DNA of 64,000 nucleotides from Denitromonas ohlonensis. GTDB lineage: Bacteria; Pseudomonadota; Gammaproteobacteria; Burkholderiales; Rhodocyclaceae. The position numbers and the translations under genes were made by a program. How positions within the stretch are numbered: position 1 is the first letter of the stretch; every line of letters begins with the position of its first letter. The stretch spans positions 124,001 through 188,000 of the forward strand of contig NZ_VMNI01000002.1 in NCBI RefSeq assembly GCF_007625205.1, read 5' to 3'. Below the pieces are notes generated by a model. That model was not told the DNA's origin and did no database searches. It saw nothing but the letters and a program-made list of their open reading frames with translations. Below are positions 12,907-23,018 of this stretch, one piece after another.

Positions 12907-14090
<1,184 letters not shown>

Positions 14091-17557: not shown

Positions 17558-18838
17558 ATGGCCCCTGACCTGCCTCTCGATACGCAACAACTCCAGGCCA
17601 TCCTGGTCGCCCTCGGCATCGGACTCATGCTGGGGCTGGAGCGCGAACGCCAATCGGCACCGCGCGCCGGGCTGCGCACCTTCGGCTTGGTCGGGCTGCT
17701 CGGCGCACTCGCCGGACTGCTGGGCGAGCGCTTCGACAGCCTGTGGCCCTTCCTCATCAGCCTCGCGCTGATCGGCATCATGATCATCGCCGCCTACCTG
17801 CAAAACCCCGACCCGCAGGACGCCGGCACCACCTCGGTGGCGGCACTGTTGCTCTGTCATGTGCTCGGTTTCATGGTGTGGGAAGGCGAGGTGCGACTGT
17901 CGATCATGATCGCGGTCGGCACCACCGCCCTGCTCTACTTCAAGACCACCTTGCGCGGCTGGGCCACCCGACTCACCGCGCGCGACTGGAACTCGATTCT
18001 GCAGTTCAGCGTGATCTCGCTGGTGATCCTGCCGGTGCTGCCAAATCAGAATTTCGGCCCCTTCGACGCGCTCAACCCCTACCAGGTCTGGTTGATGGTG
18101 GTGCTCATCTCGGGCGTCAGCCTGGCCGGCTACGCCGCCTTGCAACTGGTGGGCGGGCGCTACGGCGCGCCACTGGTCGGCCTGTTTGGCGGTCTGGTGT
18201 CGAGCACGGCCACCACGCTGGTGTTTGCCCGCGATGCACGCAAGCGCCCTGAGTTCGCGCCGGTGTCGGCGCTGGTGATCGTCATCGCCAATCTGGTCAT
18301 GCTGGCGCGCGTGGCGGTGGTGTGCGCCGTGCTGGCGCCCGGCCTGCTGTGGCAGGTGCTCAGCATCGCGGCGCCCGGTCTGGCCTTGGGCCTTGTCGCG
18401 CTGGGCGTGCAGTGGAAAACCTTGATGACGCACGAAGGCAGCCCGGTGCCCGACACCAAGAACCCGACCGAACTGCGCTCCGCGCTCACCTTCGGCGCGC
18501 TCTACGCCGCAGTCCTGCTGGGCGCCGCGTGGTTGTCCGAGGTCGCCGGCAGCGCGGGGCTGTATCTGGTCGCGCTGGTATCGGGGCTGACCGATGTGGA
18601 CGCCATCACCTTGTCGAGCCTGCGCCTGTTTTCGCTGGACCGCCTCGAATCCATCCCCACCGTCACCGCCATCGGTCTGGCCATGCTGTCCAATCTGGCC
18701 TTCAAGACCACCCTCGCGATCAGCGTGGGCGGGCCCAGCGTGGCCAAACGGGTGCTGGCCGCCATGCTGGCAGTGGGTCTGGGGCTGGGCGGCGGCCTGG
18801 CCTGGGTGGGCTGGGGTGCGGGTGGTGTCGCGGGGTAA
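17558..18838 (+). CDS. MgtC/SapB and DUF4010 integral membrane protein
   Basis: 426-aa membrane protein. The N-terminal 140 residues match MgtC/SapB (ALGIGLMLGLERERQ at about 17-31, then RTFGLVGLLGALAG), and the remainder is a DUF4010 domain with about eight membrane segments (GGLVSSTATTLVFARDARK near 210, SGLTDVDAITLSS near 345). No transport activity is established for this fusion family; magnesium or other ion homeostasis is often suggested. It is a single gene between ispD (divergent) and the channel-GGCT gene (convergent). The start is ATG at 17558. Confidence 0.88.
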   Translation: MAPDLPLDTQQLQAILVALGIGLMLGLERERQSAPRAGLRTFGLVGLLGALAGLLGERFDSLWPFLISLALIGIMIIAAYLQNPDPQDAGTTSVAALLLCHVLGFMVWEGEVRLSIMIAVGTTALLYFKTTLRGWATRLTARDWNSILQFSVISLVILPVLPNQNFGPFDALNPYQVWLMVVLISGVSLAGYAALQLVGGRYGAPLVGLFGGLVSSTATTLVFARDARKRPEFAPVSALVIVIANLVMLARVAVVCAVLAPGLLWQVLSIAAPGLALGLVALGVQWKTLMTHEGSPVPDTKNPTELRSALTFGALYAAVLLGAAWLSEVAGSAGLYLVALVSGLTDVDAITLSSLRLFSLDRLESIPTVTAIGLAMLSNLAFKTTLAISVGGPSVAKRVLAAMLAVGLGLGGGLAWVGWGAGGVAG

Positions 18839-18863
18839 TCAGAACAAACGCCGGGCGGCAGCC

Positions 18864-20429
18864 TCAGCTGGCGCCGACCTCGGGAATACGCACCACTTTC
18901 AATGCCACCAACGCGGCGCCGTCGGGCATCTCGGTGGCCGCCCGGTAGTTGTCGAACGCGGCTTTCCCCCGCGACCGGTAGGCGCATTCGACCTGTGTTT
19001 GATACGCCGTGTTGATCACCAGCGTGCCGGCAGCCCGCCCGGCGTCGAAGCGCGCTTTGGCCTCGGCCAGTCCCTTGAAGGTGAACACCCGCCCATCGAG
19101 TGGCGGATGCGCCATGGCGGCGGTGACATCGACGGCCTCGTAGTTGCGCTCCCGTTGCTTGAGCCGCGCGAACTCCTCCTCGCTGACCGCCACAAGAACC
19201 CCCACGACCTGCTGCGATGCGTCCGGCGCCACATCCAGAAAGCAGACATACACCGCCGGCACGCTGTCGGGCATGTCGGCGCGAACATAGTGCTTGTAGC
19301 CGGGCAGGCTGACGCGATTGTCCATTGCCACGCCCCATACCCGTTTGTGGCCCTTCAAGGTGGCCAGCGGAAAGTCTTCCAGAAGCCACGCATCCCGGCC
19401 AATGGTGCGACTGAACGACGCCGGGTCGACCAAGGAACCAAACCCGAACACATAGATTTTGTCGGCCTGCGTCGCCCAGGGTGGCGCGTTGAGGTGACAC
19501 GCCCGAACGATGTCGCCCGGCGGCGTGAGTCGTCGGAACAAACCCTTGCGCCGCGCATACGGGTAGTCGGAATCGACCGACCGGTGGCGGCCATGAAACA
19601 ACGCCTTTTCAGCCAGGCAGTACCGCAAGGCGCCCTGCACCGGCTGCTCGATGCCCAGCATCACACCGCGGATTTCGGCATAGATCTCTTCAATCGGCAA
19701 CGGCTGCGGATCACGCTCGCTCCGCACGCTCGCCGCGCTCACAAAGCCCTGCGCATCCACGCCGTTGATGGCAATGCCAAGATCATCCAGCGGCGCCCGA
19801 ATGCGCAGCGGAATATATGGCTCGGCCAGCGGCTGGCGCGGCGCTTCGTCGCGCAACACCACGTTGCGAAGCGTGGTGCCGTCGATGCGCGCGCGCGCGA
19901 TGAGGCGCACATGCAGCTGGCTGAGCGTCACCGGCGAGGCGTTGTAGACGCTGAAGATCAGATCGTATCGACCTTCAGCACGATGCAGATTGAGACACGG
20001 CTTGAATTCAAACACCGACTTGGGACGCAGCACCACCGCCGTCACAAAGGCAACAATGGCGGCAAAAAAAAACAAGCCGCACAAAATCTGCACCGCAGCA
20101 ATCGCCTTGTCCAGCCAAGGCACCGGCACCACGCACTGAGTGTTACCGCCCGACAGGGTCACAAACTCAAGAAACGCCCGCTCAACACAAGGCAAAAACG
20201 GCTTGTCGGATACCCCCGGCAGGTTGCGCCAACTCAGTTGATCCAGTGGGCCGGCCGCGTGGTAGAGCATGGCAAACCCGAACACCACGGTCGCCGTGAG
20301 ACACACGATGAGCACGAGGAAATGCCAGAGCGGCTGCTCGTTCCAAAGATTGAAAAAGAAGTTGCGTAGTCGGTGTCGTGCGGTCATGTCGAAAGCCCGG
20401 CCCATCCTCAACTGGGTTTGTTCCGCCAT
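18864..20429 (-). CDS. Predicted Kir-like two-TM protein fused to gamma-glutamylcyclotransferase domain
   Basis: 521 aa with an unusual architecture. Residues 20-30 are an amphipathic stretch, TM1 is about 35-58, a re-entrant pore-helix-like segment is 82-91, and TM2 is about 105-133. The filter position reads TLSGGN (91-96) where K+ channels have TVGYGD. Residues 139-290 have the strand pattern of the cytoplasmic immunoglobulin-like domain of inward-rectifier channels (LIFSVYNASPVTLSQLHVRLI). Residues 325-500 are a gamma-glutamylcyclotransferase domain with VFGFGSLVD (substrate loop) and RERNYEAVDV, supplying the expected catalytic Glu. The soluble parts are probably cytoplasmic. GGCT assignment is good; the channel relationship is inferred from segment order. 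It faces amrB divergently. Confidence 0.72.
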   Translation of the reverse strand: MAEQTQLRMGRAFDMTARHRLRNFFFNLWNEQPLWHFLVLIVCLTATVVFGFAMLYHAAGPLDQLSWRNLPGVSDKPFLPCVERAFLEFVTLSGGNTQCVVPVPWLDKAIAAVQILCGLFFFAAIVAFVTAVVLRPKSVFEFKPCLNLHRAEGRYDLIFSVYNASPVTLSQLHVRLIARARIDGTTLRNVVLRDEAPRQPLAEPYIPLRIRAPLDDLGIAINGVDAQGFVSAASVRSERDPQPLPIEEIYAEIRGVMLGIEQPVQGALRYCLAEKALFHGRHRSVDSDYPYARRKGLFRRLTPPGDIVRACHLNAPPWATQADKIYVFGFGSLVDPASFSRTIGRDAWLLEDFPLATLKGHKRVWGVAMDNRVSLPGYKHYVRADMPDSVPAVYVCFLDVAPDASQQVVGVLVAVSEEEFARLKQRERNYEAVDVTAAMAHPPLDGRVFTFKGLAEAKARFDAGRAAGTLVINTAYQTQVECAYRSRGKAAFDNYRAATEMPDGAALVALKVVRIPEVGAS

Positions 20430-20480
20430 ACCTTAACGACTGCAAAGCCTCACGGCCAGCCTCCGGCCAGGCGCATCGCG

Positions 20481-20508
20481 TTCAAGCGCATCGGGCTCGG
20501 CCTATAAT
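20481..20508 (+). promoter_or_regulatory. Sigma-70-like promoter for the amr operon
   Basis: TTCAAG (20481-20486), a 16-base spacer, then a perfect TATAAT (20503-20508), 35 bp upstream of the amrB ATG. Confidence 0.6.
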
Positions 20509-20543
20509 ACCCACAACAACCTTACGGTCTCCCGGAGACTGAC

Positions 20544-21362
20544 ATGGCCAACGCCTCCATCCGACCCGCCGCTGTTGCCGGCGCGTTTTACCCTGCCGAC
20601 CCACGCGCCCTGCAGATCATGATTGGCGACATGCTGAACGCCGCCATGCCGCTGGAAACCGTGCACTGGCCCAAGGCGCTGATCGTGCCGCACGCCGGCT
20701 ATGTGTATTCCGGCCCGATCGCGGCATCCGCCTACGCCGGGCTGCGCAGCACGCAGGCCTTCTACCGGCGCGTGATCTTGCTCGGCCCCTGCCACCGGGT
20801 GCCGGTGCAAGGCTTCGCCCTGCCCGCCGCGCAATCGCTGGCCACGCCGCTAGGCGAGGTGGCGGTCGACCGGCCCGGCTGGCTGGCGATTCAGGACGAG
20901 CCCGACGTGGTCGTCGACGACGCCCCGCATGCCCTCGAACACGCGCTCGAAGTTCAGCTGCCCTTCCTGCAAACCGTGCTCGACCACTTCACCGTCGTGC
21001 CCATCGTCGTCGGCGACACCACACCCGAGCGCGTCGCCCATCTGCTCGACCGCCTGTGGGGCGACGACGAAACGCTCATCGTCATCTCCTCCGACCTGTC
21101 GCACTACCTGCCCTATCACCAGGCGCGCTGGCGCGACCGCTCGACGGTGGAGCAGATCGAGCGCCTGCAAGGCGGCCTCGCGTTCGATCAGGCCTGCGGC
21201 GCGCTGCCCATCGAAGGCATGCTGCTCGCCGCCCAGCGCCACCATCTCGCACCCACCGTGCTCGATTTACGCAACTCCGGCGACACCGCCGGCGACCGCA
21301 ATCGTGTGGTGGGCTACACCAGCATCGCCTTTACCCCGGCCCAACGCCATGTCGCTCACTGA
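20544..21362 (+). CDS. amrB: AmmeMemoRadiSam system protein B (MEMO1 family)
   Basis: 272-aa MEMO-like protein, related to class II extradiol dioxygenases and to human MEMO1. Conserved segments include RPAAVAGAFYPAD at the N-terminus, VPHAGYVYSG (His, residues 49-58), GPCHRVPVQGF (His), HALEHALEVQLPF (about 130) and SSDLSHYLPY (about 190), which places the usual metal-binding His residues. It belongs to the three-gene MEMO-AMMECR1-radical SAM cluster found across bacteria and archaea; the reaction is unknown. It is the first gene of the operon, and the next gene overlaps it by 14 bp. Confidence 0.93.
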   Translation: MANASIRPAAVAGAFYPADPRALQIMIGDMLNAAMPLETVHWPKALIVPHAGYVYSGPIAASAYAGLRSTQAFYRRVILLGPCHRVPVQGFALPAAQSLATPLGEVAVDRPGWLAIQDEPDVVVDDAPHALEHALEVQLPFLQTVLDHFTVVPIVVGDTTPERVAHLLDRLWGDDETLIVISSDLSHYLPYHQARWRDRSTVEQIERLQGGLAFDQACGALPIEGMLLAAQRHHLAPTVLDLRNSGDTAGDRNRVVGYTSIAFTPAQRHVAH

Positions 21363-21906
21363 ATCCGAACTCGGCACCCGACTCCTCGCCCGCGCCCGCG
21401 CGGCGATTGAGCACGCACTCGATCTCGGCCCCGCGCCCGCCGACGACCCGGACCTGGCCGAGCGCGGCGCCACCTTCGTCACCCTCACCCGCAATGGCCA
21501 GTTGCGCGGCTGCATCGGCAGTCTCAAGCCGCAGCGTGCGCTGGGCGACGACGTGGTCGCCAATGCGCTGTCCGCCGCGCTGCACGACCCGCGCTTCACG
21601 CCGATGACGGCCGACGAGTGGCCCGAAATCCGCGTCGAAGTCTCGCTGCTCGGCCGCGCTGAATTTCTCGACGCCAAATCCGAAGCCGAGGTGCTGGCGC
21701 AACTGCAGCCCGGCAAAGACGGCGTGATCTTCTTCAACGGCTGCCAGCAGGCCACATTTTTGCCGCAAGTGTGGGCGCAGCTGCCCGATCCGCGCGACTT
21801 CCTCACCGAACTCAAAAAGAAAGCCGGCCTCAGCGCCGACTACTGGAGTTCGGCAGTGATGGTCGCCACCTATCCGGTCCAGAAATGGCAGGAGGACGAC
21901 GCCTAA
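21349..21906 (+). CDS. amrA: AmmeMemoRadiSam system protein A (AMMECR1 domain)
   Basis: 185-aa AMMECR1-family protein, homologous to the human protein deleted in a contiguous-gene syndrome. The diagnostic segment GQLRGCIGSLKPQ lies at about residues 53-65, with ALSAALHDPRF and ISLL/VEVSLLG following and FLPQVWAQLPDPRDFLTELKKKAGL near the end. Biochemical function is unknown. ATG at 21349 overlaps the amrB stop by 14 bp, and amrS follows after 17 bp. Conserved linkage with MEMO and a radical SAM enzyme implies a joint pathway, not identified here. Confidence 0.93.
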   Translation: MSLTESELGTRLLARARAAIEHALDLGPAPADDPDLAERGATFVTLTRNGQLRGCIGSLKPQRALGDDVVANALSAALHDPRFTPMTADEWPEIRVEVSLLGRAEFLDAKSEAEVLAQLQPGKDGVIFFNGCQQATFLPQVWAQLPDPRDFLTELKKKAGLSADYWSSAVMVATYPVQKWQEDDA

Positions 21907-21923
21907 ACCGACAGGAGGCGAAC

Positions 21924-23018
21924 ATGCACGACGCAGCATCCCGAGTTCCCGCCCGTTACTGGCACACGCTGGACGACGGCCGCATCGAATGCGACCTGTG
22001 CCCGCGCACCTGCCGCCTGCACGAAGGCCAGCGCGCCGCCTGTTTTGTGCGCCAGCGGGTCGGCGACCACATGGAGCTCACCACCTGGGGGCGCAGCTCC
22101 GGCTTTTGCATCGACCCCATCGAAAAGAAGCCGCTCAACCATTTCTACCCCGGCAACAGCGTGCTGTCCTTTGGCACCGCCGGCTGCAACCTGGCCTGCA
22201 AGTTCTGCCAGAACTGGGACATCAGCAAGTCGCGCGACATGGACCGCCTGATGGACACCGCCACGCCCGAGGCCATCGCCGCCGCGGCCGAGCGCTGGGG
22301 CTGCAAGAGCATCGCCTTCACCTATAACGACCCGGTGATCTTCGCCGAGTACGCCATCGATACCGCCATCGCCTGCCATGCGCGCGGGCTCAAGACCGTG
22401 GCCGTCACCGCCGGCTACATCCACGGCCAGGGGCGCGCAGACTTTTTTGCGCACATGGACGCGGCCAACGTCGACCTCAAGGCCTTCACCAATGACTTCT
22501 ACCGCAAGCTGTGCGGTGCCGAGCTGGCGCCCGTGCTCGACACCCTGATCTGGCTGCGCCACGAGAGTCAGGTGTGGTTCGAGATCACCACCTTGATCAT
22601 CCCCGGCGAGAACGACTCCGACGCCGAAATCACCGCCATGGCCGAGTGGATTCACCGCGAGCTGGGCGACGACGTGCCGCTGCACCTGACCGCCTTCCAC
22701 CCCGATTTCAAGCTCACCGACCGCCACGGCACGCCGCACGCCACGCTCACCCGCCTGCGCCGCTGCGCGCGCGACGCCGGCCTGCGCCATGTGTATCTCG
22801 GCAATATCGCCGACCGCGACGGCGCCAGCACCTACTGCCCCGGCTGCAACGCCCCGGTCATTGTCCGCGTCGGCTACGACATTCTCGACTACCGGCTCGA
22901 CGTGCGCGGCCAGTGCCAGCACTGCGGCGAACGCCTCCCCGGCCACTTCGGGCCCTTCGAACACCCCTTCGGCAATCGGCGCATTCCGGTCGCCATTGGC
23001 TCGACAGCGGCCGAATAG
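21924..23018 (+). CDS. amrS: AmmeMemoRadiSam system radical SAM enzyme
   Basis: 364-aa radical SAM protein (PflA-like branch). The S-adenosylmethionine cluster motif CNLACKFCQNW is near residue 88. An upstream CDLCPRTCRLHEGQRAAC supplies extra Cys, and a C-terminal CPGCNAPV...CQHCGERL zinc-ribbon-like pair lies near residues 306 and 332. It resembles glycyl-radical activases, but no glycyl-radical enzyme is nearby; the real substrate is unknown. ATG at 21924 follows a perfect AGGAGG by 5 bases. It is third in the amrB-amrA-amrS operon, with a hydrolase-fold gene 18 bp behind it. Confidence 0.93.
   Translation: MHDAASRVPARYWHTLDDGRIECDLCPRTCRLHEGQRAACFVRQRVGDHMELTTWGRSSGFCIDPIEKKPLNHFYPGNSVLSFGTAGCNLACKFCQNWDISKSRDMDRLMDTATPEAIAAAAERWGCKSIAFTYNDPVIFAEYAIDTAIACHARGLKTVAVTAGYIHGQGRADFFAHMDAANVDLKAFTNDFYRKLCGAELAPVLDTLIWLRHESQVWFEITTLIIPGENDSDAEITAMAEWIHRELGDDVPLHLTAFHPDFKLTDRHGTPHATLTRLRRCARDAGLRHVYLGNIADRDGASTYCPGCNAPVIVRVGYDILDYRLDVRGQCQHCGERLPGHFGPFEHPFGNRRIPVAIGSTAAE

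Follow-up and report, generated by a model that had tools for sequence, protein, structure and literature searches.

A Kir-like membrane domain joined to a GGCT-like domain in Denitromonas ohlonensis, a candidate bacterial chanzyme

What could a bacterium gain from a single protein in which a pore-like membrane domain is joined to a domain resembling γ-glutamylcyclotransferases (GGCTs)? The question arises from an open reading frame (ORF) of Denitromonas ohlonensis within a 64,000-nucleotide stretch of contig NZ_VMNI01000002.1, the whole of which is called the window here. No description of a Kir-GGCT fusion was found among the papers listed in searches of open-licence PMC articles, which agrees with an original prediction, made from the bare sequence, that no described system has this architecture. 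The fusion protein is considered below as a gene, as two domains, and as a candidate bacterial 'chanzyme'.

The fusion gene, its distribution and its locus

18864–20429, minus strand: whole ORF, Kir-like pore domain fused to a GGCT-like domain; 521 aa from the first ATG, with a likely start at 20387 that gives 507 aa

This ORF is very probably a real gene. Three relatives from the genus are 96, 90 and 71% identical to the window protein, and a homologue in a genome of another family of the same class (G135) is 46% identical. Translation probably begins at residue 15 (20387; residues are numbered from the first ATG), because the three genus relatives (G005, G007 and G009) have no ATG, GTG or TTG earlier in the open frame and begin at this residue. 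Within the genus, dN/dS is 0.077–0.142 for the N-terminal half and 0.092–0.218 for the C-terminal half; the ratios of pairs with G007 are rough as their dS exceeds 1, and comparisons with G135, which are saturated or nearly so, were left out. By these sequence comparisons the fusion gene is under purifying selection within the genus. An antisense ORF of 591 codons lies opposite the gene (18594–20369, plus strand) and is probably a by-product of codon usage, since few stops interrupt the corresponding antisense frame in any of the five homologues (1, 1, 3, 1 and 1).

The fusion is present in five sequences from two families, at 46–96% identity to the window protein, and the two-transmembrane (TM) domain is kept together with the GGCT part in all of them, as expected if the two-domain architecture originally predicted is genuine. 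A whole-protein search of 101 relatives gave five matches, of which one (G051) covers the C-terminal domain only and four are full-length, all in the genus (four of its ten genomes, the window's own included). A profile of the N-terminal half matched two of 369 class genomes, the window's own and G135. Clear matches were confined to the window's own genome among 399 order genomes and among 398 phylum genomes, and to this genome and G005 among 219 family genomes. In the family of G135 the fusion occurs in one of six genomes (G135 alone). A close-relative scan of GTDB contigs returned two genus members and four actinobacterial loci, the latter with the C-terminal part only. As the class, order, phylum and family searches are samples that share genomes, their counts hold for the searched genomes; within these the Kir-GGCT fusion appears rare, yet it reaches across family borders with both domains. 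Plasmids searched for relatives of the fusion gave no match, and viral contigs held no relative of the fusion protein. Borderline profile matches (E 0.004–0.009) were rejected as family members: those in G475 and G1204 carry internal stops, and those in G997, G984 and G1083 are ORFs with K+-channel-type pores, which by eye read TLGFGD or TVGYGD.

The site of the gene differs between genomes. The gap between an MgtC/DUF4010 membrane protein gene and a Memo-AMMECR1-radical SAM cluster is variable in the genus (window 18838–20544; L043:870–2900; L047:830–2840): it holds the Kir-GGCT gene in three species (the window, G005 and G009), a LysR-type regulator with an EamA transporter in two (G006 and G001) and nothing in three (G002, G003 and G008), where the flanking genes are directly adjacent. 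The LysR/EamA assignment rests on Pfam for the G006 pair and on likeness to that pair for G001. In G004 and G007 the fetched stretch has no DUF4010 match and the gene is not there; in G007 and G135 the fusion gene lies elsewhere in the genome. The gene acts like a unit of its own, at a chromosomal site that varies, and no functional partner was found among neighbouring genes at the fusion loci. PADLOC models for anti-phage defence matched the window protein in none of their families at E up to 0.1.

Several features of the surroundings were noted in passing. In the window, Memo, AMMECR1 and radical SAM genes lie side by side by Pfam matches (20544–23018) and form an AmmeMemoRadiSam-type cluster. 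Memo of G001 (L047:1–830) is matched in two pieces, perhaps through a frameshift or assembly error. An ORF at window 13200–14090, only a few kilobases away from the fusion gene, looks by eye like an IS3-type transposase. Also by eye, the fusion gene of G007 (L014:3362–11064) is downstream of PQQ-synthesis-like genes and upstream of an MsrA-like gene, and that of G135 (L018:7062–10326) adjoins a gene for a PAS-type methyl-accepting chemotaxis protein.

The Kir-like half and its filter loop

20337–20381, minus strand: amphipathic 'slide' helix, residues 17–31 (AlphaFold helix 3–17 when numbered from residue 15; pLDDT about 45)
20256–20330, minus strand: TM1, residues 34–58 (AlphaFold models)
20157–20198, minus strand: predicted pore helix, residues 78–91, FLPCVERAFLEFVT (AlphaFold models; pLDDT about 45)
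20028–20120, minus strand: TM2, residues 104–134, followed by a Kir-like RPK motif at 135–137 (AlphaFold model, homologue alignment, pore-segment match)
19590–20006, minus strand: beta-rich cytoplasmic Kir-like domain, residues 142–280 (AlphaFold and Foldseek)

Over its first ~280 residues the protein has the predicted layout of an inward rectifier (Kir/KirBac). AlphaFold, run on five-row alignments, gives a slide helix, TM1, pore helix, TM2 and about ten β strands, the order read in the original prediction, at low confidence (mean pLDDT 48.6 for the full length and 51.3 for the N half). Foldseek comparison of these models with the PDB returned Kir-family chains throughout the best 50 of 1062 matches (E up to 10) for the full-length model (best E 1.7e-5) and the best 50 of 1339 (E up to 10) for the N-half model (best E 4.7e-6). 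PDB entries named no more precisely than 'potassium channel from Magnetospirillum/Burkholderia' were counted as KirBac. For both models the TM-scores are about 0.2–0.4 and the rmsd 8–15 Å, values that would be expected if domain placement in the models is unreliable.

Direct sequence comparison also gave matches to Kir. All six sequences found by phmmer in the PDB at E up to 10 are Kir7.1, with E-values (0.086–0.84) that are not significant alone, and a profile search of the PDB gave seven matches, six to Kir7.1 and one to a uridylate kinase. These weak phmmer alignments lend support to the likeness to Kir first noticed in LIFSVYNASPVTLSQLHV, and ALFHGRHRSVDS may, as was also proposed, resemble the last conserved Kir strand. 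The KirBac yardsticks were four proteins with intact frames (L024–L027), two of which (L024 and L025) match Pfam IRK and IRK_C; L028 was left out for an internal stop and a score below the cut-off. Against these four, hhalign gave P 1.3e-4 and a probability of 54% over 220 columns, with 24% identity in aligned columns. A rerun scored 38.6, with reversed controls at 17.0 and 17.3, and none of 100 block shuffles reached that score. Part of the hhalign signal is hydrophobic pattern, because the best shuffle (34.8) fell on the same diagonal. Scores from hmmsearch between the window protein family and KirBac-type proteins were weak.

An ungapped 55-residue KirBac pore segment peaked once per homologue, always at the same aligned position (29.2, 29.2, 29.2, 16.0 and 15.8 over the five rows), with the next best position at −7.8 or lower and reversed maxima of −14.0 to −4.2. 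True K+-channel-type pores scored 18.8–80.2, so that the fourth and fifth rows fall just below the weakest of them, and four other membrane proteins, two named by eye, scored −16.2 to 4.5. The pore helix and TM2 are conserved, with ERAF, FVTL and LFFFAA invariant in the five homologues. Together, Foldseek, hhalign and the pore register in five rows support the Kir-like plan originally claimed.

Family models did not recognise the protein. Pfam IRK (PF01007) and IRK_C (PF17655) gave no match to it at E up to 10, and scans with Pfam, NCBIfam and PADLOC matched no channel model. Over 150 order genomes IRK matched five, from which the four KirBac yardsticks and L028 come, the window's own not among them; IRK_C matched none of 143 class genomes but no control genome either, which makes this negative uninformative; and PF13772 had no match in the window's own genome. 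The window protein thus has in common with KirBac and Kir channels a predicted slide helix, TM1, pore helix, TM2, RPK motif and beta cytoplasmic domain, and differs from them in the missing TxGYG, the missing IRK/IRK_C match and the enzyme-like domain at its C-terminus.

20133–20150, minus strand: likely filter position GGNTQC, residues 94–99, aligned with KirBac TVGYGD in the ungapped register
20142–20159, minus strand: TLSGGN, residues 91–96, the filter of the original prediction, kept by some gapped alignments
20187–20189, minus strand: Cys81, close to the N-terminus of the predicted pore helix, invariant in five homologues
20133–20135, minus strand: Cys99, on the outer side of the filter loop, invariant in five homologues

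The absence of a normal K+ signature was rightly foreseen: neither TxGYG nor GYG occurs in any of the five homologues, in either register. The filter had been read as TLSGGN. These letters are present, but the filter is probably shifted by three residues to GGNTQC, the position favoured here from the alignments. Among 20 ungapped offsets, +3 stands out (score 23.9; next best −26.5) and lays TVGYGD over GGNTQC. The gapped alignments are split: four of the six HMMER alignments covering the filter take +3 (L021, L023, L025 and L026), while those of L022 and L024, together with hhalign, place the K+ signature over TLSGGN. The pore-helix-plus-filter part alone makes no choice between offsets 0 and +3 (−1.1 and −1.3), and the end of the predicted pore helix at T91 does not decide the register. 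A NaK/CNG-like reading of TLSGGN was dropped because the ungapped register favoured GGNTQC. Nor is TLSGGN a conserved site, as it is kept in three of five homologues and replaced by TLSGGS in G009 and TLGEVD in G135. At the favoured position the window protein and G005 read GGNTQC, G009 GGSTQC, G007 GGNAQC and G135 EVDGQC, and the Q and C that end the loop are invariant in all five.

Cys81 and Cys99 possibly form a disulfide pair. In Kir2.1 two conserved cysteines around the pore loop, C130 and C162, are described as forming a disulfide that folding requires (PMC9273215). The cysteines around the window protein's filter loop recall this pair, a likeness that is suggestive only, and the spacing differs, with 18 residues between C81 and C99 and 32 in Kir2.1 (PMC9273215).

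The closest published counterparts of this half are the NirBacs of Anaeromyxobacter and Gemmatimonas, which are reported to have the Kir fold with unrelated filter loops, to be activated by POPG and to conduct monovalent cations without selectivity (PMC4607889). The window protein shares their Kir architecture, here by prediction, and the replacement of the K+ filter by another loop. The NirBac loop differs even between the close relatives NirBac1.1 and NirBac1.2 (PMC4607889). NirBacs are ~35% identical to KirBac1.1, whereas the KirBac similarity of the window protein is visible only to profile, register and fold tests; the latter also carries a fused GGCT domain, and the cited passages on NirBacs mention no enzyme domain (PMC4607889). 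The pore half is a divergent NirBac-like variant and, a Kir-fold channel with a replaced filter having been published already (PMC4607889), is not new in kind.

The GGCT-like half

18867–19457, minus strand: GGCT-fold, AIG2/GGACT-like domain, residues 325–521 (PF06094; alignment of relatives)
19431–19442, minus strand: FGSL loop, residues 330–333, at the position of the GGCT YGSL loop (alignment; motif as given in PMC7022552)
19149–19151, minus strand: Glu427 of RERNY, at the catalytic-Glu position, invariant in all eight aligned sequences

By alignment, a GGCT-fold (AIG2/GGACT-like) domain makes up the last ~195 residues. The GGCT originally proposed for this half holds as a domain type; its affinity is with AIG2/GGACT (PF06094) rather than ChaC, and it falls below the PF06094 cut-off (17.2 bits, E 0.0081, against 22.8). 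Pfam ChaC gave no match to the window protein at E up to 10. The fused homologues at L014 and L017 match no Pfam family at E up to 1. All four stand-alone relatives that were scanned (L009, L010, L011 and L005) pass the PF06094 cut-off, and L009, L010 and L011 are 44, 39 and 37% identical to the window GGCT domain. Among the listed ORFs neighbouring the stand-alone actinobacterial loci (L008–L011), no channel was recognised by eye.

The motif residues are well kept. The GFGSL loop and the Glu at the catalytic position (E427), both pointed out originally, are confirmed by alignment, and the [FY]GSL loop, an Arg, Glu427 and Tyr430 occur in all eight aligned sequences. In the window protein, G005 and G009, Phe replaces the first Tyr of YGSL. 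Two plant AIG2-like structures, weakly matched by profile (E 0.17 and 0.28), have the Glu of their EGN-Y segment aligned with Glu427. YGSL and the Glu are given as common features of GGCT-fold enzymes (PMC7022552). The domain therefore resembles AIG2-like/GGACT proteins in its loop, invariant Arg, catalytic-position Glu and following Tyr, and departs from them in its fusion to a membrane domain, the Phe of its loop and its sub-threshold score against the Pfam model. The window's genome also encodes a glutathione (GSH) synthetase (PF02951).

A possible link between cation movement and γ-glutamyl chemistry

The best explanation, a tentative one of slightly less than even confidence, is a NirBac-type membrane protein of Kir fold with a GGCT-fold domain: a cation pore carrying an enzyme or sensor for a γ-glutamyl metabolite, whose turnover or occupancy would gate the pore. 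The Kir-fold pore, expected to be a tetramer, would have a GGCT-fold domain fused at the cytoplasmic end of each chain, with four such domains below the cytoplasmic beta domains. Because the K+ filter is swapped for a divergent loop (GGNTQC), the pore, if it conducts, would most likely pass monovalent cations with little selectivity. Each GGCT domain could bind a γ-glutamyl compound and cyclise it to 5-oxoproline, candidate substrates being a γ-glutamylamine, a γ-glutamyl dipeptide or a glutathione derivative. In the most likely logic, occupancy or turnover of the GGCT site would move the cytoplasmic ring and gate the pore, and γ-glutamyl (redox or electrophile) status would thereby be coupled to cation leak.

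Partial parallels exist in other systems. The eukaryotic chanzymes TRPM2 and TRPM7 have a channel and an enzyme-like domain in a single chain, as does the window protein; they are six-TM TRP channels with NUDT9-like or kinase domains. Kef has a transporter fold unrelated to Kir and is not known to carry a cyclotransferase domain. Glutathione is described as keeping Kef closed and a glutathione adduct as activating it (PMC3412212), so that cation efflux under the control of glutathione state has a precedent among Gram-negative bacteria (PMC10224563, PMC3412212). ChaC is reported to have first come to notice in the cha operon, alongside the ChaA antiporter. In E. coli chaA-chaB-chaC a γ-glutamyl cyclotransferase is genetically tied to cation transport, as it may be here; the operon differs in having separate proteins, an antiporter instead of a channel, and a ChaC that is not AIG2-like (PMC12756093). 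From NirBac, TbIRK, the cha operon and Kef, as described in the cited sources, we infer a cation pore coupled to γ-glutamyl chemistry.

A possible alternative, clearly less probable than a metabolite-gated cation pore, is that the Kir-like part conducts nothing and serves as a scaffold, either a membrane anchor or a lipid/ion-sensing regulator for a membrane-tethered GGCT enzyme. In its favour, GYG is absent from all five homologues, the filter loop varies, as it would in a dead pore too, and the enzyme domain retains its motif residues. Against this, the pore helix and TM2 are conserved, including the invariant ERAF, FVTL and LFFFAA, and every homologue retains the Q-C that closes the loop. 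NirBacs with unrelated loops are moreover reported to conduct (PMC4607889).

Slightly more doubtful again is a specific form of the favoured cation pore, a bacterial chanzyme whose filter-swapped Kir pore is gated by its own GGCT. A γ-glutamyl/glutathione-derived metabolite would open or close the non-selective cation channel, and cyclisation of this ligand would end the signal.

A K+-selective channel with an unorthodox filter, regulated by its GGCT domain, is improbable. Lack of the signature would still allow moderate K+ selectivity, because TbIRK, a Kir homologue without it, is reported to be moderately K+ selective (PMC5429665), but the loop varies between homologues, and the kind of constraint that typifies a K+ filter is not visible in it. 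Least probable is that the N-terminal domain has a different two-TM, beta-domain fold merely resembling Kir, a view to which the missing Pfam channel match, the hhalign probability of only 54% and the low pLDDT lend something, but against which the Foldseek result, the profile comparison, the pore register of all five rows and the phmmer search of the PDB agree, and three borderline matches of the phylum search are, by eye, ORFs with K+-channel-type pores.

The cellular role of bacterial Kir-domain channels is described as unclear (PMC4607889). When a channel is fused to a metabolic domain, the fusion points to the ligand or pathway served and offers a direct assay. If the preferred reading of a pore coupled to its GGCT-fold domain is true, the NirBac theme of filter replacement would extend to a far more divergent lineage. 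The protein would also join γ-glutamyl chemistry to cation movement within one chain, a connection so far hinted at by chaA-chaC and Kef.
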